In this document: positions 1-34,838 of the stretch, in pieces | How positions within the stretch are numbered: the first letter of the stretch is position 1 | Layout of the letters: every line of letters starts with the position of its first letter | Assembly (NCBI GenBank): GCA_021324595.1 | Contig: JAJPIV010000138.1 | Location: forward strand, 1 to 36,174 | Source: Actinomycetota bacterium | GTDB lineage: Bacteria > Actinomycetota > Actinomycetes > Streptosporangiales > Streptosporangiaceae | Length of the DNA stretch: 36,174 nucleotides | Reading direction: 5' to 3' | Translations under genes and position numbers: made by a program | The notes under the pieces: generated by a model | Seen by the model: the letters and a program-made list of their open reading frames with translations, nothing else | The model's database searches: none | Told to the model about the DNA's origin: nothing

Positions 1-933
1 ACCGGGATCCTGGCCTACACCCTGGGCATGCGGCACGCGTTCGACGCCGACCACATCGCCGCGATCGACAACACCACCCGCAAGCTCGTCAACGACGGCA
101 AGCGGCCGCTGTCGGTCGGGTTCTTCTTCTCCCTCGGGCACTCGACGATCGTCTTCCTGCTGGCGGTGCTGCTGAACTTCGGCATCCGATCGCTCAACAG
201 CGCGGTGAAGAACCCCAGCTCCGACCTGCACCGGTACACCGGCATCATCGGCACCAGCGTCTCGGGCACCTTCCTCTACCTCATCGCCGGGATCAACCTG
301 GTCATCCTGGTCTCCATCATCAGGGTCTTCCGGCAGATGCGCACCGGGAGGTTCAGCGACGAGGAGCTCGAGCGCCAGCTCAACAAGCGCGGCCTGATGA
401 ACCGCGTCTTCGGCAGCTACGCGAGCCGGATCGACGCCCCGTGGAAGATGTACCCGGTCGGCGTGCTCTTCGGGCTGGGCTTCGACACCGCCACCGAGGT
501 CGCGCTCCTGGTCCTGGCCGGCACCGCCGTGGTCAGCGGGCTGCCGTTCTACGCGATCCTGTCGCTGCCGATCCTGTTCGCCGCCGGGATGTCGCTGTTC
601 GACACCCTGGACGGCTGCTTCATGAACTTCGCCTACGACTGGGCCTTCGCCAAGCCAGTCCGCAAGGTGTTCTACAACCTCACCATCACGGGCCTGTCGG
701 TCTTCGTCGCGTTCTTCATCGGGACGATCGAGATCCTCGGACTGATCGCGCAGGAGGCCAACCTCGGCGGCGGGTTCTGGGCGTTCATGCAGAGCTTCAA
801 CATCAACAAGGCCGGCTTCGTCATCGTCGCGATCTTCGTCATCACATGGGCCGTCGCGGTGGGCATCTGGCGCTTCGGGAAGATCGAGCAGAAGTGGGAG
901 GTCCGCCGCCCGGCGGCGACGGCGGAGGAATAG
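1..933 (+). CDS. NiCoT-family nickel/cobalt permease, 5' end cut by window
   Basis: Inner-membrane permease of the HoxN/NixA/NiCoT family, which takes up Ni2+ or Co2+. The reading frame is open from base 1, so the true start lies outside the window and 310 residues are visible. The family signature in the second helix (His-X4-Asp-His, seen as HAFDADHIAAIDN) begins near visible residue 12. The further family motifs GLGFDTATEVALL and SLFDTLDGCFMNFAYDWAF are present, followed by the usual hydrophobic C-terminal helices. It ends 107 bases before the stop of the convergent aquaporin gene. Nickel versus cobalt preference cannot be read from sequence alone, and no nickel enzyme is encoded nearby. 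Confidence 0.93.
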   Translation, partial: TGILAYTLGMRHAFDADHIAAIDNTTRKLVNDGKRPLSVGFFFSLGHSTIVFLLAVLLNFGIRSLNSAVKNPSSDLHRYTGIIGTSVSGTFLYLIAGINLVILVSIIRVFRQMRTGRFSDEELERQLNKRGLMNRVFGSYASRIDAPWKMYPVGVLFGLGFDTATEVALLVLAGTAVVSGLPFYAILSLPILFAAGMSLFDTLDGCFMNFAYDWAFAKPVRKVFYNLTITGLSVFVAFFIGTIEILGLIAQEANLGGGFWAFMQSFNINKAGFVIVAIFVITWAVAVGIWRFGKIEQKWEVRRPAATAEE

Positions 934-1039: not shown

Positions 1040-1924
1040 TCAGGTCCGGCCCGCCTCCGGCGGCCGCCCGGGGCTACCAGGGACCCATGCGATGCCGAGG
1101 GTGCCCTGGGCGGCGCGCCGCCCGGACCACCCGCCGCCACGGCCGCGCAGGATGTGGGCGATGCCGACTGCGGCCAGGGCGCCGAGCAGCGGGCCGGCCA
1201 GGTACACCCACCAGGACTTCCAGTCGCCCAGCACGAGGGCGGGCCCGAGCGACCGGGCCGGGTTCATCGAGGCGCCGCTCACCGGGGCGCCGATCAGCCC
1301 GGCCAGGGCGATGTAACCGCCCACGCCGAGGGCGGCCATGGCCCCGATCTGCTGGGCGCCCGACGCGGTGCCGAGGATCACGCTGACCAGCCCGGCCGAC
1401 AGGATCGCCTCCCACAGCATCGCGGCCGCCGCCGGGATGCCCGGGCCGGGAAGCGTGAGGCCGGCGGCCCCGTGCCGGCCGAGCAGGCCGACGAGCACGG
1501 CCGTGGCGGCCACGGCGCCGGCGAGCTGGGCGACGAGGTAGAGCGGGACCCGGCGGACGGGAAAGTCGGACCTGAGGGTGAACGCGATCGTCACCACCGG
1601 GTTGAGGTGAGCGCCGGACACCGCCCCCATGAACAGGATGATCGCCATCACCATCAGGCCCGGCGAGACCTCCATCGCGGCCGGGGCGATGACCTGGCCG
1701 CCGAGCCGGGCGTTCACCATCGGCCCCCCGGCGGCCACGAGAACGAGCAGGAACGTGCCGAACAGCTCCGAGAACAGGCGCCGCCACTCATACCGGTCGT
1801 CGGTGAACTCGAAGGTCCAGGCCAGCGCGTTCGGATGGCCCAGCGAGCGCACGCCCACCGCGCGCCGCGCCTCGTCCCTGCCGTCGCCGGCCCTGGGCGG
1901 CGAAGCAGGCGCCCGATCGCTCAT
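1040..1924 (-). CDS. Aquaporin / MIP-family channel
   Basis: Major intrinsic protein of 294 residues, predicted to form a six-helix water or small-solute channel. Both pore half-helix motifs are visible: the first is NPV (residues 108-110, in SGAHLNPVVTIAF) instead of the usual NPA, and the second is NPA (221-223, in GASMNPARSLGPA) followed by the selectivity-filter Arg. The start is set by a strong GAGGAGG ribosome site about 7 bases upstream of ATG 1924; the open frame continues further upstream but is Arg/Pro-rich and not aquaporin-like. A hydrophilic N-terminal tail of about 45 residues and a basic C-terminal tail flank the core. It converges on the NiCoT gene. The transported solute is unknown; Si, glycerol or water are all possible. 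Confidence 0.9.
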   Translation of the reverse strand: MSDRAPASPPRAGDGRDEARRAVGVRSLGHPNALAWTFEFTDDRYEWRRLFSELFGTFLLVLVAAGGPMVNARLGGQVIAPAAMEVSPGLMVMAIILFMGAVSGAHLNPVVTIAFTLRSDFPVRRVPLYLVAQLAGAVAATAVLVGLLGRHGAAGLTLPGPGIPAAAAMLWEAILSAGLVSVILGTASGAQQIGAMAALGVGGYIALAGLIGAPVSGASMNPARSLGPALVLGDWKSWWVYLAGPLLGALAAVGIAHILRGRGGGWSGRRAAQGTLGIAWVPGSPGRPPEAGRT

Positions 1925-2185
1925 CTCACCGCCTCCTCGTGCGCCCGCACCCGGCGCCGCGCCAGGCGATGATCCCGGGCCCGGGCTGGCGCGGCGCGCC
2001 GCGCGCCGCGCGCGGCGCGGGTCAAGCGGAGCATAGCCGGGCGAGCGGCGCGGCCCGGGCATGCCGGGGCGGCTCGGCTCCTCACCTGGCCGGGGCTGCT
2101 CGCCCGATGGCCCGCGCCCTCGCCGCCACCGTCTCCCGGGGCCGGCGCGCCGGGCTGCTCCCTTGGGTAGCCGCCCTGAGCGCAT

Positions 2186-4752: not shown

Positions 4753-4775
4753 ATTGTATACCGTCGTCAGGATAC
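4753..4775 (-). promoter_or_regulatory. 23-bp operator/promoter element, copy A (transporter)
   Basis: On the plus strand it reads ATTGTATACC, CGTCG, T, CAGGATAC. It contains an imperfect inverted repeat GTATAC-N8-GGATAC. The minus strand offers a -10-like TACAAT (plus 4753-4758) with ATGACT 18 bases upstream as a possible -35. The same 23 bases recur at 9855-9877 with a single difference. An operator overlapping the -10 would fit repression by the neighbouring GntR protein. Confidence 0.65.
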
Positions 4776-6180: not shown

Positions 6181-7234
6181 GGTTGCCTCCCTCGGTGGGC
6201 TCGGGAACGGACCGGCCGGACTCGGGGCGCGGCCCGAACGGAGTCTGCTTGATCCGCAGCACTCCGGGCAGGATCCAGTCCTCCCACATCTCGTCGATCC
6301 GGGCCTGGAAGAAGTCGATGTCATCGTCCGCGAAGTGCGCGAAGCGGCCCTGGCGCCGCAGGTAGTCGGCGACCGGGCGGCGCTTGACCGCCCCGTCCAC
6401 CTGCTGCCGGGTCAGGCCCTGGTAGCGCAGCTCGCCTTCCAGGCAGTCCCACAGGACCGTGATGCCGCACTCGACGGCCAGGATCGCCAGCTCGTGCGAC
6501 ATCCGCGGGTCGAAGTCCCACCCCTTGGGGCACGGGTCGTGGGTCTGCACGAAGGTCGGGCCGCCCACGTCCAGGGCGGTGCGCACCTTCTCCATCAGGT
6601 CCATGCCGAACCCAGACGAGGCGTTCGCGAAGTACCGCCCGGTCGGGTGGCCGGCCATCAGCAGCGCGGGCACGTTCTTCTTCCATCGGTGGTGGGTGAT
6701 CCGCATCTGGCTGCCCGACGGGGTGAACGCGGTGACCGCGCCCCACGGGGTCATCCCGGACGCCTGGATGTCGGTGTTGGCGTACGACTCGTTGTCGTAC
6801 AGCAGGATGAGCAGGTTGTAGCGGGTGTCCTGGAGCGCGGCCGACAGCGTGGCCAGCCCCATGTCACCGCCGCCGCCGTCGCTGCAGAACGCGATGACGT
6901 TGATCCGCTCGTCGGGGATCTTGCCCTTGCGCATCAGCGCCTTGAGCGCGGCGGCGGTGCCGACCGCCGACGAGCCGGCCGACCCGAGCTGGGTGTGCGC
7001 CCACGGCAGGGCCCACGGCGTGGAGTTGTAGCTGGTGTTCGCCACGTACATGCAGCCCGTGGTGCCGGTCACCAGCGTCCGGGGCCCCGCCACCTTCGCC
7101 ATGTACCGCATGACGAGCGCGCTCTCGCAGCCCTGGCAGGTGCGGTGACCGGAGGTGTAGAACTCCTGCATCGGCAGGATGGTGAGCCTGCGGTTGATCT
7201 CCAGGTCGGGGATGGTCATTTCCGGTGCGGTCAT
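6173..7234 (-). CDS. 2-oxoacid (probable oxalate) oxidoreductase, beta subunit (TPP/Fe-S)
   Basis: Thiamine-diphosphate subunit of 353 residues, PorB type. The cluster ligands are Cys33 and Cys36 (GHRTCQGC), Cys61 (TTGC) and Cys235 (HDPCPKGWDFDP), the standard four for the proximal [4Fe-4S] cluster. The TPP/Mg2+ motif is CSDGGGGDMGL (117-127) followed by YDNESYANTDIQ (146-157); pyruvate enzymes usually have GDGG, so Ser118 is a small deviation. TGATG joins it to the alpha gene (stop and start share one A), and GGAAAGGGGTG serves as ribosome site. ATG 7219 is a possible internal start. It works with alpha and gamma-delta to split a 2-oxoacid with TPP and pass electrons to Fe-S clusters. Confidence 0.9.
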   Translation of the reverse strand: MTAPEMTIPDLEINRRLTILPMQEFYTSGHRTCQGCESALVMRYMAKVAGPRTLVTGTTGCMYVANTSYNSTPWALPWAHTQLGSAGSSAVGTAAALKALMRKGKIPDERINVIAFCSDGGGGDMGLATLSAALQDTRYNLLILLYDNESYANTDIQASGMTPWGAVTAFTPSGSQMRITHHRWKKNVPALLMAGHPTGRYFANASSGFGMDLMEKVRTALDVGGPTFVQTHDPCPKGWDFDPRMSHELAILAVECGITVLWDCLEGELRYQGLTRQQVDGAVKRRPVADYLRRQGRFAHFADDDIDFFQARIDEMWEDWILPGVLRIKQTPFGPRPESGRSVPEPTEGGNHG

Positions 7235-8514
7235 CAGCGCGCACCCCTTTCCACGTCGTACCTCGGGTCACTGGCGGGACCGCGCACGCCGATCCACTGG
7301 CAGCTGGCGTCCAGTTCGCCCCTGGCCGTCAGCTCCTCGGTGATGTCCGTCATCTCCTCGATGTTCTCGACCGAGACCTCACGCCCGCCGAGCCCGGCGA
7401 TGAACGGCACGATCACCGGGCGCGTCGGCTCGGGGTAGAGGGCCGCGGCGACCTCGGTGTAGAGCACCCCGCCGTGCGCGTTGGAGCCGAACGAGTAGTC
7501 CCGGTCCACGATGCCCACGCCCTTGACGCCGCGCAGCAGGGCGCGCAGCTCCGGCCGGGGGAACGGGCGGAACCACTTCACCCGCACGAAGCCGACCCTG
7601 CGGCCCGCGGCCCGCATCCGGTCGACCGCCACCTTCCCTACCAGGCCGACCGTGCCCATGCCGATCAGCGCGTACTCGGCGTCCTCCATCCGGTAGGTGT
7701 CCACGAACGGGTCGTCAGGCCCCCGGCCGAACACGCGGCGGAAGTCCGCGGTCGCCTCGGCGATCACGCCGCGTGCCCGGCGCATGGCGGCGTCGGCCTG
7801 GCGCCGCGCCTCCATCACCCAGTCCTCGTTGAACTGCGGCGCGATCGACACCGGGTTGTCCGGGTGGAACCTGCGGTCGCCGAGGTCGTACGGCGGCAGG
7901 AACTCCGCCACCGGAGCCGGCCCGGGCACCTGCACGATGTGCTGGCTGTGGGTGAGGAATGCGCCGTCCATGGACAGCGCGCAGGGCAGCATCACCCGCT
8001 TGTCCTCGGCCACCCGGTAGGCGAGCAGCGTGGTGTCCAGCGCCTCCTGGGCGCTCTCCACCCAGTACAGGAGCCAGCCGGTGTCGCGGACCATCAGCGC
8101 GTCGTTGTGCTCGACCCCGAACGCGCCCGGGTCATCCAGCGCCCGGTTGCCCACCAGCGCGATCACCGGCAGCCGCAGGGAGGAGGTGACGACCAGCGCC
8201 TCCATGCCGTACATCCAGCCCACGCCGGAAGAACCGATGAACGCCCGGGCGCCCACCAGCGACGCGTGCTTGCCGATCTCGAACTGGGAGTGCTCGGACT
8301 CGGCCACGATGAACTCCGCGTCCATCTGACCGTTCGCGATCATCTTGCTGACCGCCGTCATGACGCTGTCGTACGGCCGGATCGGGTAGCCGGCCAGCAC
8401 GTCCACGTCGGCCAGCCGCAGTGCCTGGGCCACCGCGTCGCAGCCCGTGATGATCTCTTCGCTGCCAGCGGCCGCCGCAGCAGTGCCGGCGGCTCTGGTC
8501 TCCATCGTCGTCAT
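7234..8514 (-). CDS. 2-oxoacid (probable oxalate) oxidoreductase, alpha subunit
   Basis: Substrate-binding subunit of 426 residues, PorA type. The segment ESEHSQFEIGKHASLVGAR contains the Glu that activates TPP in this family (probably Glu74). The active-site motif is GYPIRP (42-47), with Arg46 where pyruvate enzymes have Thr in YPITP. Arg124 (GNRALDDPG) lies 78 residues later. In Moorella oxalate oxidoreductase the oxalate-binding residues are, as I recall, Arg31 and Arg109, also 78 apart. This is the main evidence for oxalate as substrate. DTGWLLYWVESAQEALD and LPCALSMDGAFLTHS are ordinary family segments. Start ATG 8514 follows GGAAGGA; the stop overlaps the beta start by one base. A different charged 2-oxoacid cannot be excluded. 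Confidence 0.88.
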   Translation of the reverse strand: MTTMETRAAGTAAAAAGSEEIITGCDAVAQALRLADVDVLAGYPIRPYDSVMTAVSKMIANGQMDAEFIVAESEHSQFEIGKHASLVGARAFIGSSGVGWMYGMEALVVTSSLRLPVIALVGNRALDDPGAFGVEHNDALMVRDTGWLLYWVESAQEALDTTLLAYRVAEDKRVMLPCALSMDGAFLTHSQHIVQVPGPAPVAEFLPPYDLGDRRFHPDNPVSIAPQFNEDWVMEARRQADAAMRRARGVIAEATADFRRVFGRGPDDPFVDTYRMEDAEYALIGMGTVGLVGKVAVDRMRAAGRRVGFVRVKWFRPFPRPELRALLRGVKGVGIVDRDYSFGSNAHGGVLYTEVAAALYPEPTRPVIVPFIAGLGGREVSVENIEEMTDITEELTARGELDASCQWIGVRGPASDPRYDVERGAR

Positions 8515-8537: not shown

Positions 8538-9608
8538 TCAGTAGATGCCGTAGTGGGGGACCGGGCCCCCGGCCTTGGCGAGCTTCTCCGCCCGCAGCTC
8601 CTCGTAGGCGGCCGGATCGCGCTCATACACGCCGTGCAGCGGCTCGTTGCCGTCGAAGACGGCCTCGTTCACCATCTCGATGCAGCCGCTGACCGGGCAG
8701 GACTGCGCGCAGATGCCGCAGCCGCAGCAGTGGTCGTAGTTGACGTCGTAGTGGCCCTCCGGCGTGGGGATGAAGCACTCGTCCGGGCAGACCGTGTAGC
8801 AGATCTGGCACTTGACGCAGGCGTCGAACTTGATCAGCGGGCGAGCGGTCCGGGTGGTGTACTTCATGAACAGCTCGTTCGTCCGCCCGACCTCGACGGC
8901 CGGGACGACCAGGCCCTCCCGCATCTGCGTCCAGTCCGGCATCTGCACCGGGACGTAGGTGTCCTCGGCACCCTCGCCCGCGGCGACCTGGTGGAGCTGG
9001 ACCGCCTCGTAGCCCTCGCGGAGCTGCTGCTCCCGCTTGCCGCCGTCGCGGGTGCCAGCAGCCTGCGCGATCAGGCTCTCCAGCGACACCAGGCCGTCGG
9101 TGACCCGGGCGATCGCGCCCATGGTGCGGTAGTCGGTCCCGTCGTCGTTGTAGACCCACAGCCCGCCGAACGACGGTTCCCCGGGCAGGATCGCGAGCGT
9201 CCACGGCTGCGGGCGCCGCGGGATCCACTTGAGCAAGGCGGCGGGATCTTGCCGCGAGATCACCAGCAGCGTGCCGCCCGGGGCGAGGTTGAGGTTGATG
9301 GGCCGCACCCCGTACCACGCCCAGGACTCGATGCCCTTTGCGAGCGTGTCGTCCATGACGGCGACCACGACCACGTTGTCCGGCTCGTACTTGGTCATCT
9401 CGACCTGCAGCGACGCCATGTCGCTGGCGATCACGGCGAACTGCTTGGCGGGGATGCCGTTGCGCTCCGGCGAGTCCCCGTAGCGTGCGACGGTCCCGCC
9501 GAACTTGTCCTCCCGGCGGGCGGCCTTCACGAGCTCCTTGGTGATGACGCCTGCCAGGTTCTTCTGGAAGACGCCCCGGTAGGTGACATCCACGGCACCG
9601 GCAGACAT
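8538..9608 (-). CDS. 2-oxoacid (probable oxalate) oxidoreductase, fused gamma-delta subunit
   Basis: Protein of 356 residues made of a POR gamma domain (about 10-180), a linker, and a two-cluster ferredoxin (delta) domain. The cluster motifs are CVKCQICYTVCP (Cys264, 267, 270, 274) and CCGCGICAQSCP (Cys294, 297, 300, 304). It is the first gene of the operon, 23 bases before alpha. ATG 9608 is preferred over ATG 9617 because the GAAGGG ribosome site lies 9 bases before 9608 but directly abuts 9617. Fusion of gamma and delta gives a three-subunit core, as in the Moorella oxalate oxidoreductase, whereas many archaeal enzymes have four separate subunits. It should relay electrons from the beta cluster to ferredoxin or to the NuoF-like subunit. 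Confidence 0.9.
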   Translation of the reverse strand: MSAGAVDVTYRGVFQKNLAGVITKELVKAARREDKFGGTVARYGDSPERNGIPAKQFAVIASDMASLQVEMTKYEPDNVVVVAVMDDTLAKGIESWAWYGVRPINLNLAPGGTLLVISRQDPAALLKWIPRRPQPWTLAILPGEPSFGGLWVYNDDGTDYRTMGAIARVTDGLVSLESLIAQAAGTRDGGKREQQLREGYEAVQLHQVAAGEGAEDTYVPVQMPDWTQMREGLVVPAVEVGRTNELFMKYTTRTARPLIKFDACVKCQICYTVCPDECFIPTPEGHYDVNYDHCCGCGICAQSCPVSGCIEMVNEAVFDGNEPLHGVYERDPAAYEELRAEKLAKAGGPVPHYGIY

Positions 9609-9825
9609 CTCAGCCATCCCTTCGTTCACGTCGTGCGGCGGAGTGGGGACGATGTGGGAGCCGGGGGCGGCTGCTTCCCGGCGGCGATCCGGGTCTTCGC
9701 TGCCCGGTGCCGCCGGCCGGTCCGGGCGCAAAGGCACCGGCAGGCGCGGCTAGCGAGGGCCGGGGGTGGCGTGCGCACATATCTACTCCTCGGCGTTGGT
9801 CAGGGCCTGCGGTGGGCAGAAGGCA

Positions 9826-9854: not shown

Positions 9855-9877
9855 ATTGTATACCGTCGGCAGGATAC
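9855..9877 (-). promoter_or_regulatory. 23-bp operator/promoter element, copy B (oxidoreductase operon)
   Basis: Plus strand reads ATTGTATACC, CGTCG, G, CAGGATAC; it differs from copy A (4753-4775) at one position only. The minus strand again has the -10-like TACAAT (plus 9855-9860), but no good -35 is visible 16-18 bases upstream. It lies about 245 bases upstream of the first gene of the operon, so that transcript also has a long leader. Conservation limited to these 23 bases, with unrelated flanks, points to a protein-binding site. Confidence 0.68.
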
Positions 9878-10338
9878 CCCCCATGCTAGAGGCACCTCCT
9901 ACCGCGTCAAGGGCCGGGCCAGGCCGCCCGGGGGTCGTGCGGATCCAGCTGGCCTGCGTCCTGCCGAGTCACCGCAGGTTGCCCGACCGCCATCACCCGA
10001 CAGCGATTGCCGGTCACCTCCGCCACCAGGGCCACGACGTTGGTCACGGCGGCCGGGCGCGGCGGGCATCGCGGACCCGACGAGGCGCCTCTCACCTTGC
10101 GCGCCGGCGAGCAGAGCACTCTGCGCACCGCTCGCCACCGTCCTGACCGCAGCCGAGCAGTGCATCCCGCGCCAGCACCGCGGCACCGGCCCCGGCCGCC
10201 GACGTGGGCCGCGCTCGCAGGCCACTGCGCCGGGCTGCCGGCCGCGGCGGCGCCGTCAGATGAGACCGAAACTGGGACCAGGAGGCCGCCGCAGGGATGA
10301 ACGACAACTGTGGACTCCACATCAGCCCAGGTCAGTGG
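9878..10338. other. Intergenic stretch without a convincing gene
   Basis: About 460 bases between operator copy B and tRNA-Ser(CGA). All open frames are Arg/Pro/Ala-rich and lack a ribosome site. One minus-strand frame (around 9930-10060) contains a short protein-like run, VVALVAEVTG, but nothing recognisable around it; a decayed gene is possible. I see no RNA gene or terminator of note. Confidence 0.4.
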
Positions 10339-10425
10339 CGGTGGAGGTGGGATTTGAACCCACGGAGGGGTTGCCCCCTCACACGCTTTCGAGGCGTGCG
10401 CCCTCGGCCACTAGGCGACTCCACC
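10339..10425 (-). tRNA. tRNA-Ser (anticodon CGA)
   Basis: 87-nt class II tRNA on the minus strand. The acceptor GGTGGAG pairs with CTCCACC, the discriminator is G, and the anticodon loop is CTCGAAA, giving CGA (reads UCG). A long variable arm (GGGGGCAACCCC) and the T-loop TTCAAAT are present. CCA is not encoded. It lies 51 bases downstream of the tadA stop. Confidence 0.96.
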
Positions 10426-10476
10426 GCCGCAGAGCCTACCTGACGCCGGGCCGGCCCCGCGGCGGGCGCGGCCAGG

Positions 10477-10929
10477 TCAGCGCAGGCGCGCGAAGAAGTC
10501 CCGCAGCAGCGCGGCGCAGGGTTCGGCGAGGACGCCGCCGATCACCTCGACCGGCGGGCCGAGCCGCCGGTCCCTCACCGGATCCCACAGCGAGCCGGCG
10601 GCTCCGGCCCGGGGGTCGGCGGCCCCGTAGACCAGCCGCCCGATCCGGGCCGCCCGCAGCGCGCCCGCGCACATCGTGCAGGGTTCCAAGGTCACCACGA
10701 GCGTGCAGCCGTCCAGCCGCCAGGCGCGGGCGGCGCGGGCGGCGTTCCTGATCGCCAGGATCTCCGCGTGCGCGGTCGGGTCGCCAAGGCCCACGCACCG
10801 GTTGCGGCCCTCGCCGAGCACCCCGCCGTCCGGCGCGAGCACCAGCGCCCCGACCGGGACATCGTCTCCGGGGCTCGCGGCGCCGGCCAGGCGGAGAGCC
10901 CGGCGCATGGCCGGCTCGAAGGTCCTCAC
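10477..10929 (-). CDS. tadA: tRNA-specific adenosine deaminase (wobble A34 to inosine)
   Basis: CDA-fold zinc deaminase of 150 residues. The zinc site and catalytic Glu are His54-Ala-Glu56 (AHAEILAIRNA) and Cys84-X2-Cys87 (EPCTMCAGA), and the length is normal for TadA. It converts A34 of tRNA-Arg(ACG) to inosine. The start is uncertain: GTG 10929 gives the full frame, while ATG 10908 would remove seven residues and has GAGGA about 12 bases upstream. It follows the TadA-associated gene by 30 bases and probably shares its transcript. Confidence 0.92.
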   Translation of the reverse strand: MRTFEPAMRRALRLAGAASPGDDVPVGALVLAPDGGVLGEGRNRCVGLGDPTAHAEILAIRNAARAARAWRLDGCTLVVTLEPCTMCAGALRAARIGRLVYGAADPRAGAAGSLWDPVRDRRLGPPVEVIGGVLAEPCAALLRDFFARLR

Positions 10930-13324: not shown

Positions 13325-13463
13325 CGCGCCGGGACGCCGCCGTCCGGGCGGCATGTGCCAGCACGGTGCCGGAAACGGGCGCTCCGGTCACGCCAGGCGG
13401 TGAGAGGCCCCGGGCCGCAGCGGCCAGGAACCCCGGGCTGGCCGGGAAGTCCCTGGTCAGGGG

Positions 13464-13552
13464 CGGAGGCTCGGGGATTTGAACCCCGGAGGGCCGCAAG
13501 GCCCAACCGCATTAGCAGTGCGGCGCCATAGACCGGACTAGGCGAAGCCTCC
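13464..13552 (-). tRNA. tRNA-Ser (anticodon GCT)
   Basis: 89-nt class II tRNA on the minus strand. GGAGGCT pairs with AGCCTCC, the discriminator is G, and the anticodon loop CTGCTAA gives GCT (reads AGC/AGU). A long variable arm (GGGCCTTGCGGCCC) and T-loop TTCAAAT are present; CCA is not encoded. Confidence 0.96.
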
Positions 13553-21156: not shown

Positions 21157-21243
21157 GGAGGGTTCGCCTAGTGGCCGATGGCGGCGGTCTTGAAAACCGC
21201 TGGGGCGTGAACGTCCCCGTGGGTTCGAATCCCACACCCTCCG
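21157..21243 (+). tRNA. tRNA-Ser (anticodon TGA)
   Basis: 87-nt class II tRNA. GGAGGGT pairs with ACCCTCC, the discriminator is G, and the anticodon loop CTTGAAA gives TGA (reads UCA and probably other UCN codons). A long variable arm (GGGGCGTGAACGTCCCC) and T-loop TTCGAAT are present; CCA is not encoded. Confidence 0.96.
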
Positions 21244-21496
21244 CTCAGGGCTTCGGGAACAGGGATTCGCGAAGACCCGGGCGGGTTCCCGGCGTCCCCT
21301 CAGACGTTCATTGCTGTTCGGTGGCGGCCATGCGCCCCGTATCCGCTTCCGCGCATCTACGCGGCGTCGGCGATCGGCCGCATTGGAATGGGCGCCGGGA
21401 GAGCGACCCGGCTTTCCGAGGCAACTAGTCACGCCCCGTTTGATCCGCGGCGTATCGGTGCTGGCGCCCGCCTTGTGATCATGGTTGCGTCCGGGT

Positions 21497-34752: not shown

Positions 34753-34838
34753 TGGTGGGCGAGGAGGGATTTGAACCCTCACGTCCTCGCGGACACACGG
34801 ACCTGAACCGTGCGCGTCTGCCGTTCCGCCACCCGCCC
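34753..34838 (-). tRNA. tRNA-Leu (anticodon CAG), CCA encoded
   Basis: Class II tRNA. Acceptor GGGCGGG pairs with CTCGCCC (one G-U), discriminator A, anticodon loop TTCAGGT gives CAG (reads CUG). Long variable arm and T-loop TTCAAAT are present. Unlike the three tRNA-Ser genes here, CCA is encoded (34753-34755). Its place directly upstream of fhaA matches the conserved actinobacterial arrangement. Confidence 0.95.

Follow-up and report, generated by a model that had tools for sequence, protein, structure and literature searches.

We analysed a stretch of 36,174 nucleotides (the window), contig JAJPIV010000138.1 of assembly GCA_021324595.1, from an Actinomycetota bacterium of the Streptosporangiaceae. 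The assembly spans 4.09 Mb in 168 contigs and is 96.9% complete and 4.1% contaminated. The list of open reading frames (ORFs) of the window gives a minus-strand operon, with the order gamma-delta, alpha, beta and NuoF-like, for a candidate oxalate oxidoreductase (OOR), an enzyme that depends on thiamine pyrophosphate (TPP). About 540 nt separate the NuoF-like gene from a gene for a transporter of the major facilitator superfamily (MFS), and a GntR/FCD regulator gene completes the set (Table 1). The start of beta coincides with the stop of alpha, and the start of the NuoF-like gene overlaps the stop codon of beta. The gamma-delta ORF opens at GTG 9737 (ORF 9737-8538), with ATG 9617 as the likelier start. 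The assembly holds one further POR_N gene, on a different contig. We read the window, with a probability of about 77%, as an oxalate regulon in which a transporter supplies a variant OOR that passes electrons to NAD+ via NuoF, under GntR/FCD control, in an organism capable of respiring oxygen. The gene context is the strongest evidence for this reading, and the transporter, the regulator, the NuoF module and a shared operator candidate carry most of the weight.

Table 1. Features of the oxalate oxidoreductase-like locus in the window
Feature	Position	Strand	Remarks
Fused gamma-delta subunit, two [4Fe-4S] ferredoxin motifs	8538..9617	minus	359 amino acids from the likelier ATG start at 9617
Alpha subunit, TPP-binding	8514-7234	minus	ATG start, 426 amino acids; YPIRP with R46, R124, loop RALDDPGAFG
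Beta subunit, other TPP half	7234-6173	minus	matches 5c4i_C, OxalOxredbeta best model; GCMYVAN residues specific to groups A and B
NuoF-like subunit	6180-4969	minus	403 amino acids; Complex1_51K, NADH_4Fe-4S
MFS transporter of the oxalate/formate antiport family, divergent	4429-2984	minus	assigned from profile scores and homologues near Moorella-type OOR
GntR/FCD transcription regulator	1939-2928	plus	PF00392 and PF07729; true start probably near 2240
Operator candidate CGGTATACAAT ahead of gamma-delta	9855..9865	minus	one of two exact copies in the assembly
Operator candidate CGGTATACAAT in the gap from NuoF to transporter	4753..4763	minus	the other exact copy in the assembly

The initial annotation, made from the letters of the window, had proposed an oxalate-type active site in alpha from a YPIRP motif and two arginines placed as in the OOR of Moorella thermoacetica. 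The motif is indeed present (residues 41-50 read AGYPIRPYDS), and Arg46 replaces the Thr of YPITP, the hallmark of pyruvate:ferredoxin oxidoreductase (PFOR). The best match of alpha in the PDB is the Moorella OOR alpha chain 5c4i_A (phmmer, E 5.7e-93), on which Arg46 and Arg124 map to Arg31 and Arg109 in an alignment that is gap-free up to there; the two are 78 residues apart, as had been stated. We compared 143 alpha sequences in three groups, namely A, the window type (n=87), B, the Moorella type (n=28), and C, all others (n=28). Arg occupies Moorella position 31 in 87/87 sequences of A, 28/28 of B and 0/28 of C, where Thr or Ser is found in 28/28. The equivalent of Arg124, however, is invariant in 65/65 aligned sequences, including 10 C-type ones without YPIRP, and the accessible part of the structural work on OOR describes it as binding pyruvate in PFOR (PMC5020499). 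Arg124 is not diagnostic of the oxalate type, because pyruvate-type relatives carry Arg there too, and we rejected both it and the 78-residue spacing as evidence, since these relatives have both. Of the two arginines of the proposed signature, the discriminating residue is Arg46.

The predicted structure of alpha is closest to the same Moorella chain. An AlphaFold model built from a 65-sequence alignment has a predicted local distance difference test (pLDDT) score of 87 and superposes on 5c4i_A with template modelling (TM) scores of 0.88/0.95, Z 56.8 and 41% identity. Confidence is good overall and lower in blocks 41-50 and 121-140 (pLDDT 59-76). An earlier model from 10 sequences was discarded, as its pLDDT was below 50 at 43-46 and 119-145. 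The pyruvate enzyme 9bt4_A is nearly as close to the model (Z 54.5, 32% identity), so fold alone cannot decide the substrate. This four-subunit PFOR resembles the window enzyme in fold and subunit plan, but it has YPITP and a separate delta chain of 85 amino acids.

In a tree of 59 rows from which the motif columns were removed (22 A, 17 B and 20 YPITP/YPISP sequences; 13 of the rows come from the 28 of C and 7 were newly added), A, B and C are single clades, each with 100/100, and A+B is separated from C with 100/100. A quick tree of 101 of the 143 rows agrees. The window alpha stands beside the Moorella OOR clade and outside the clades of other known substrate, although it branches as part of a sister to B and not within it. 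Two of the refutations named in the initial annotation, arginines that do not map and a place within a clade of another known substrate, therefore did not materialise. Sampling of other 2-oxoacid enzyme families is thin in these trees, since the C rows were drawn from sequences that match the window or Moorella alpha, with 9bt4 added. Tree position and neighbour genes both speak against an ordinary pyruvate or 2-oxoglutarate oxidoreductase that acquired its Arg by chance, which we regard as very improbable. PorA is the second-best NCBIfam model for alpha (336.3 bits against 359.4 for the OOR model) and the fold is the same, as such an enzyme would have it; set against this are the Thr or Ser of all C sequences and the variants of StOFOR1 at YPITP residues, reported as inactive or much weaker in the accessible part of PMC5020499.

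The other subunits point in the same direction. The best PDB match of beta is the Moorella OOR chain 5c4i_C (E 7.3e-78). That of gamma-delta, which has a Fer4_21 domain, is 5c4i_B over residues 42-359 (E 3.5e-21), and the fused subunit claimed at the outset is therefore real. This fused, three-subunit plan is that of Moorella, but it is not strictly defining, as the actinobacterial B locus L125 splits gamma and delta. The best NCBIfam model is an OOR model for each of alpha, beta and gamma-delta. Groups A and B also have residues in common. In alpha, Moorella positions Y33, Q62, D112, G115, F117, G118 and E120 are each conserved in 90% or more of the A sequences, likewise of the B sequences, and in 0/28 of C. 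In beta, M53, Y54, A56 and N57 (Moorella numbers) of the GCMYVAN segment reach 90% or more in A and in B and stay below 20% in C, among the loci with a long enough beta (79/84 A, 18/20 B and 16/16 C).

The switch loop sets the two groups apart, with RTLDPPGDFG in B and RALDDPGAFG in A. Arg31 and Asp116 are named as the bait-and-switch residues of OOR in the accessible part of PMC5020499. Group A has Asp at the position of Pro113, among other fixed differences from B, and its loop still holds two Asp, one of them shifted to position 113, which, from the alignment, may or may not do the job of Asp116. The initial claim that the operon is a strong candidate for OOR outside acetogens is supported, but the enzyme is not of the Moorella type: it belongs to a sister clade that lacks Asp116. 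Relative to the Moorella enzyme (PDB 5c4i, 5exd and 5exe; NF045790-NF045792), the window has YPIRP, the equivalents of R31, R109, D112 and F117, and GCMYVAN in beta. It differs by an alpha that is only about 41% identical, by Asp116 to Ala and Pro113 to Asp, by scores below the model cut-offs, by its NuoF partner and by a host with terminal oxidases.

Moorella-type enzymes also occur in Actinobacteria. Three actinobacterial alphas (L002, L003 and L019) reach 511, 506 and 523 bits on the NCBI OOR alpha model, above its cut-off of 500, and the first two belong to the family of the window. The existence of OOR outside acetogens therefore holds without the window and is already implied by a public model; the window is the more divergent case. 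We found seven actinobacterial B loci, four in the same family (L124-L126 and L128), one in the same order (L127) and two in the same phylum (L129 and L130). Their alphas are 38-43% identical to that of the window. They differ from it by a separate gamma, a delta part fused to a GltD-like NAD(P) oxidoreductase (as read in L125) and the lack of a close NuoF. They resemble it in the transporter subfamily, in the regulator and in an upstream element.

The transporter of the window is 70-74% identical to those of three genera of the same family that have Moorella-type OOR, and about 40% identical to that of a fourth genome; the homologue adjoins the B operon in L125 and L126. Of 41 related genomes, 5/6 with a YPIRP-type alpha have a close transporter (E <= 1e-90), against 0/35 of the rest (Fisher p 8e-6). 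The carriers are G000, G006, G017, G021 and G028, the last being the 40% case, and no close transporter was found in the sixth, G024. In G017, transporter (contig C79) and operon lie on different contigs. The motif was read in each of the 14 genomes that have an alpha match: these six are of YPIRP type (with YAIRP in L004 counted as such), and the other eight have YPISP or YPITP. With a loose threshold (E 1e-20), the counts are 5/6 and 7/35 (p 0.005). These p values are not independent, since the genomes are related, and the Fisher test is uncorrected for relatedness.

Genes of the antiport family are found near alpha in 11/85 A loci (window included), 8/20 B loci and 0/16 C loci. The A-side antiporters of L069, L078, L088 and L050 pass the TIGR04259 cut-off of 335 bits for oxalate/formate antiporters (460-572 bits), and that of L105 falls below it (310 bits). 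One of the 11 hits (L080) covers only 95 amino acids. The 85 A loci are not all independent, as L049 and L050 share one genome and L059 and L132, whose contigs are of equal length, are probably one locus. Adjacency in A and B together (19/105) against C (0/16) has a p of only 0.053, so it is the genome-wide co-occurrence and the operator candidate that carry the argument.

The regulator of the window is 68.5% identical over 213 amino acids to the one beside the B operon of L125 and about 50% identical to that of L130. GntR-like regulators are found near alpha in 51/85 A, 14/20 B and 0/16 C loci. The stretch L181, whose alpha is 99% identical to that of Moorella, holds an antiport-family gene and a GntR-like gene, as the window does. 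The hexamer GTATAC occurs twice in the 36-kb window, where 1.5 copies are expected, once ahead of gamma-delta and once ahead of the transporter. Both sites sit in the near-repeat GTATCCTG(A/C)CGACGGTATACAAT. The two exact copies of CGGTATACAAT in the 4.09-Mb assembly are those ahead of the operon and of the transporter, and the same pattern read backwards, used as a control, has 0 copies in it.

The same element lies 30-98 nt ahead of gamma in the B operons L124, L125, L126 and L127, and 73 nt from gamma on the opposite strand in L130, i.e., near gamma in 5/7 actinobacterial B loci, L128 and L129 having none. Overall, CGGTATACAAT was found in 3/84 other A loci (the near relatives L045-L047, ahead of gamma-delta), 6/20 B loci (in L185 it is not ahead of gamma) and 0/16 C loci. 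L044 and L048 have GTATAC with different flanks. CGGTATACAAT thus marks this group of actinobacteria and does not mark clade A. Two enzyme cores with alphas of about 40% identity are associated with the same upstream element and transporter type, and no other single argument speaks as well for a common substrate.

The partner of the enzyme suggests where the electrons go. The NuoF-like protein matches Complex1_51K (135.1 bits), NADH_4Fe-4S (42.3 bits) and NuoF chains (E ~1e-66), and has a Nuo51 flavin mononucleotide (FMN) domain, an SLBB domain and Cys 329/332/335/375 for one [4Fe-4S] cluster. The OOR-like enzyme of the window is most likely linked to NAD+. A precedent is phenylglyoxylate dehydrogenase, PadEFGHI, an NADH-dependent enzyme that joins a 2-oxoacid oxidoreductase core to its own NAD(H)-linked flavoprotein. 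The window differs from it, with 266.2 bits on the PadG model (cut-off 700) and a flavoprotein that is NuoF-like.

Alternatively, an OOR could deliver its electrons to ferredoxin, not NAD+, the NuoF-like gene serving another complex. This would be compatible with oxalate as substrate and fits the presence of a close NuoF in only 6/85 A loci, all in the group of the window. We find it improbable, given that the NuoF gene overlaps the beta stop in the window and follows beta in the five nearest relatives. Other lineages of A have a small ferredoxin and a flavoprotein instead (8/85), which we read as a ferredoxin and its reductase, the flavoprotein of L053 matching Pyr_redox_2. In the actinobacterial B locus L125 (5891-7780, plus strand), the delta ferredoxin motifs form the C-terminal part of a GltD-like NAD(P) oxidoreductase, and homologues of the whole protein are present in 7/7 such loci; it would be a second NAD(P)-linked design. 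These modules can be read as repeated rewiring of the OOR core toward pyridine nucleotides. Of the A loci, one (L045) likewise has a GltD-like match nearby (310 bits).

Taken together, our observations concern the kinship of the sequences, the mapping of key residues and the order of the genes, along with a transporter type, a regulator type and an upstream element in common with Moorella-type loci; from these we infer the substrate, the independence from coenzyme A (CoA), the direction, the NAD+ acceptor, the transport and the pairing of regulator and operator. The antiport-family transporter would import oxalate. The TPP enzyme formed by alpha, beta and gamma-delta would bind the dianion, its two carboxylates being held by R46 and R124, and split it into CO2 and carboxy-TPP; the second CO2 would then be released with two low-potential electrons, with no need for CoA. 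The Moorella OOR is likewise described as CoA-independent and as delivering low-potential electrons in the accessible part of PMC5020499. In the window, the electrons would leave gamma-delta by its two [4Fe-4S] clusters and reach NAD+ through the [4Fe-4S] cluster and FMN of the NuoF-like subunit. The GntR/FCD protein would bind CGGTATACAAT and thereby control both operon and transporter. The genome encodes haem-copper oxidases. No oxalyl-CoA decarboxylase (oxc) or formyl-CoA transferase (frc) scored over cut-off in this assembly, which is incomplete, and the operon may be the oxalate route of the host.

Several observations weigh against this reading. All three subunits fall short of the cut-offs of their OOR models (OxalOxredalpha, 359.4 bits for 500; OxalOxredbeta, 321.7 for 590; OxalOxreddelta, 108.9 for 230); the six other A alphas scored on the alpha model also stay below 500 (361.6-423 bits). 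The residue expected at Asp116 is Ala131 in the window, with Ala in 87/87 A and Asp in 28/28 B. The transporter is not a TIGR04259 oxalate/formate antiporter by score (121 bits), and it does as well on the lactate model SfMCT (140.3 bits) as on the antiport family TIGR00890 (138.8 bits), all below cut-offs; the related transporters of L048, L125, L127 and L134 are also below every cut-off. An antiport-family gene is missing from 74/85 A loci, many of them on short stretches, and the transporter is in only 3/7 actinobacterial B stretches. A related regulator was found in 2/7 of the latter (L125 and L130) and not seen in the other five, several of which end at contig ends. The neighbourhoods of A include tricarboxylate-type TctA in 22/85 and an FMN hydroxyacid oxidase in 5/85. 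Finally, four congeners that were searched have only YPISP or YPITP alphas, which, with the 4.1% contamination, makes mis-binning of the contig possible; the pattern also fits sporadic gain.

Some of these points would suit an enzyme oxidising a different small 2-oxoacid, dianionic or polar (mesoxalate, oxaloacetate or glyoxylate), with R46 holding the second charge and the parallels with OOR reflecting ancestry only. The change of Asp116 to Ala and of Pro113 to Asp, the other fixed differences between A and B, and the TctA and hydroxyacid oxidase neighbours all agree with it. We nevertheless consider it unlikely, though less so than the other alternatives, because the window has its transporter type, regulator type and upstream element in common with the Moorella-type OOR of sister genera, and oxalate/formate antiporters above cut-off adjoin four A loci. 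For clade A as a whole, the substrate need not be oxalate everywhere, given the tricarboxylate-type transporters in Rokubacteria and others. Rokubacterial A loci (L084, L086, L094, L098 and similar ones) lie between Tct transporter genes and genes that, by sequence, look like those of pyridoxal-phosphate synthesis (PdxS/T and a PdxR-like regulator). The FMN alpha-hydroxyacid oxidase gene is near beta in L082, L110, L112, L121 and L123 (SAR202, Dehalococcoidia and other Chloroflexi), where its product could make glyoxylate or oxalate in place.

Clade A is widespread. Among the best 80 of 357 confirmed relatives, retrieved with patterns that contain the loop part FG[VS]EH[NT]DA and leave out YPIRP, 80/80 have YPIRPY and RALDDPGAFG, and the record labels span at least 11 phyla. 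These labels include Actinomycetota (with Rubrobacter), Bacillota, Chloroflexota (with SAR202), Pseudomonadota, Myxococcota and other Deltaproteobacteria, Rokuibacteriota, Methylomirabilota, Nitrospinota, Bipolaricaulota, Armatimonadota and Nitrososphaerota. Nearly all are metagenome-assembled genomes (MAGs), so single phylum placements may be binning errors. The nearest relatives of the window alpha are in actinobacterial MAGs (L044-L048), which, like the search of the phylum, points to an actinobacterial host. In a draw of 296 genomes of the phylum of the window, the matches at 63-65% identity came from six genomes of one family (f31), which groups with Rubrobacter in the 101-row tree. Two f31 genomes with clade A are single contigs (3.0 and 3.2 Mb), so cultured members may exist. 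A draw of 249 genomes from the phylum of a Clostridia-labelled MAG gave 20 B alphas, 61-99% identical to Moorella. The MAG Bu54, labelled Bacillota, has two copies of a clade A operon (L049 and L050) that are closest to those of actinobacteria and have genes of the antiport family nearby, by transfer or because the bin is mislabelled. In a literature search that left most subscription literature outside, no title or abstract start was found to describe clade A, and YPIRP appeared only in PMC5020499. Two Tepidiforma species, which may or may not carry clade A, do not use oxalate according to PMC10284905.

The window also holds genes outside this locus. An aquaporin-family (MIP) gene (1040-2185, minus strand) faces the GntR/FCD regulator, and a NicO-type nickel transporter gene lies at 28-933 (plus strand). 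Three tRNA-Ser genes and one tRNA-Leu gene are found within about 25 kb (10336-10929, 13462-13552, 21157-21244 and 34753-34838), the first adjoined by a cytidine/deoxycytidylate-type deaminase gene (10929-10477).

Oxalate is a common acid of plants and fungi, and OOR is best known from an acetogen that avoids oxygen. If our reading is right, the window describes a low-potential, CoA-free oxalate route with NADH as its product in an oxygen-respiring organism, and as operator and regulator are shared, the proposal lends itself to direct tests. We give about even odds to a broader proposition, that clade A is a second, largely unrecognised OOR family whose hosts are mostly aerobic bacteria, with some archaea, and that it has a switch loop re-tuned by Asp at the Pro113 position in place of Asp116, and interchangeable modules (NuoF, or ferredoxin and reductase) that lead to NAD(P)+. 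In that case, oxidation of oxalate to CO2 without CoA would be a route of major importance in oxic soils and in the sea. Genomes are often scored for oxalate degradation by the presence of oxc, frc and decarboxylase genes, and a large survey of the gut states that OOR was left out (PMC8062136). If clade A oxidises oxalate, genomes that score below the OOR cut-offs, and hence are not named as having OOR, would be those of oxalate users.

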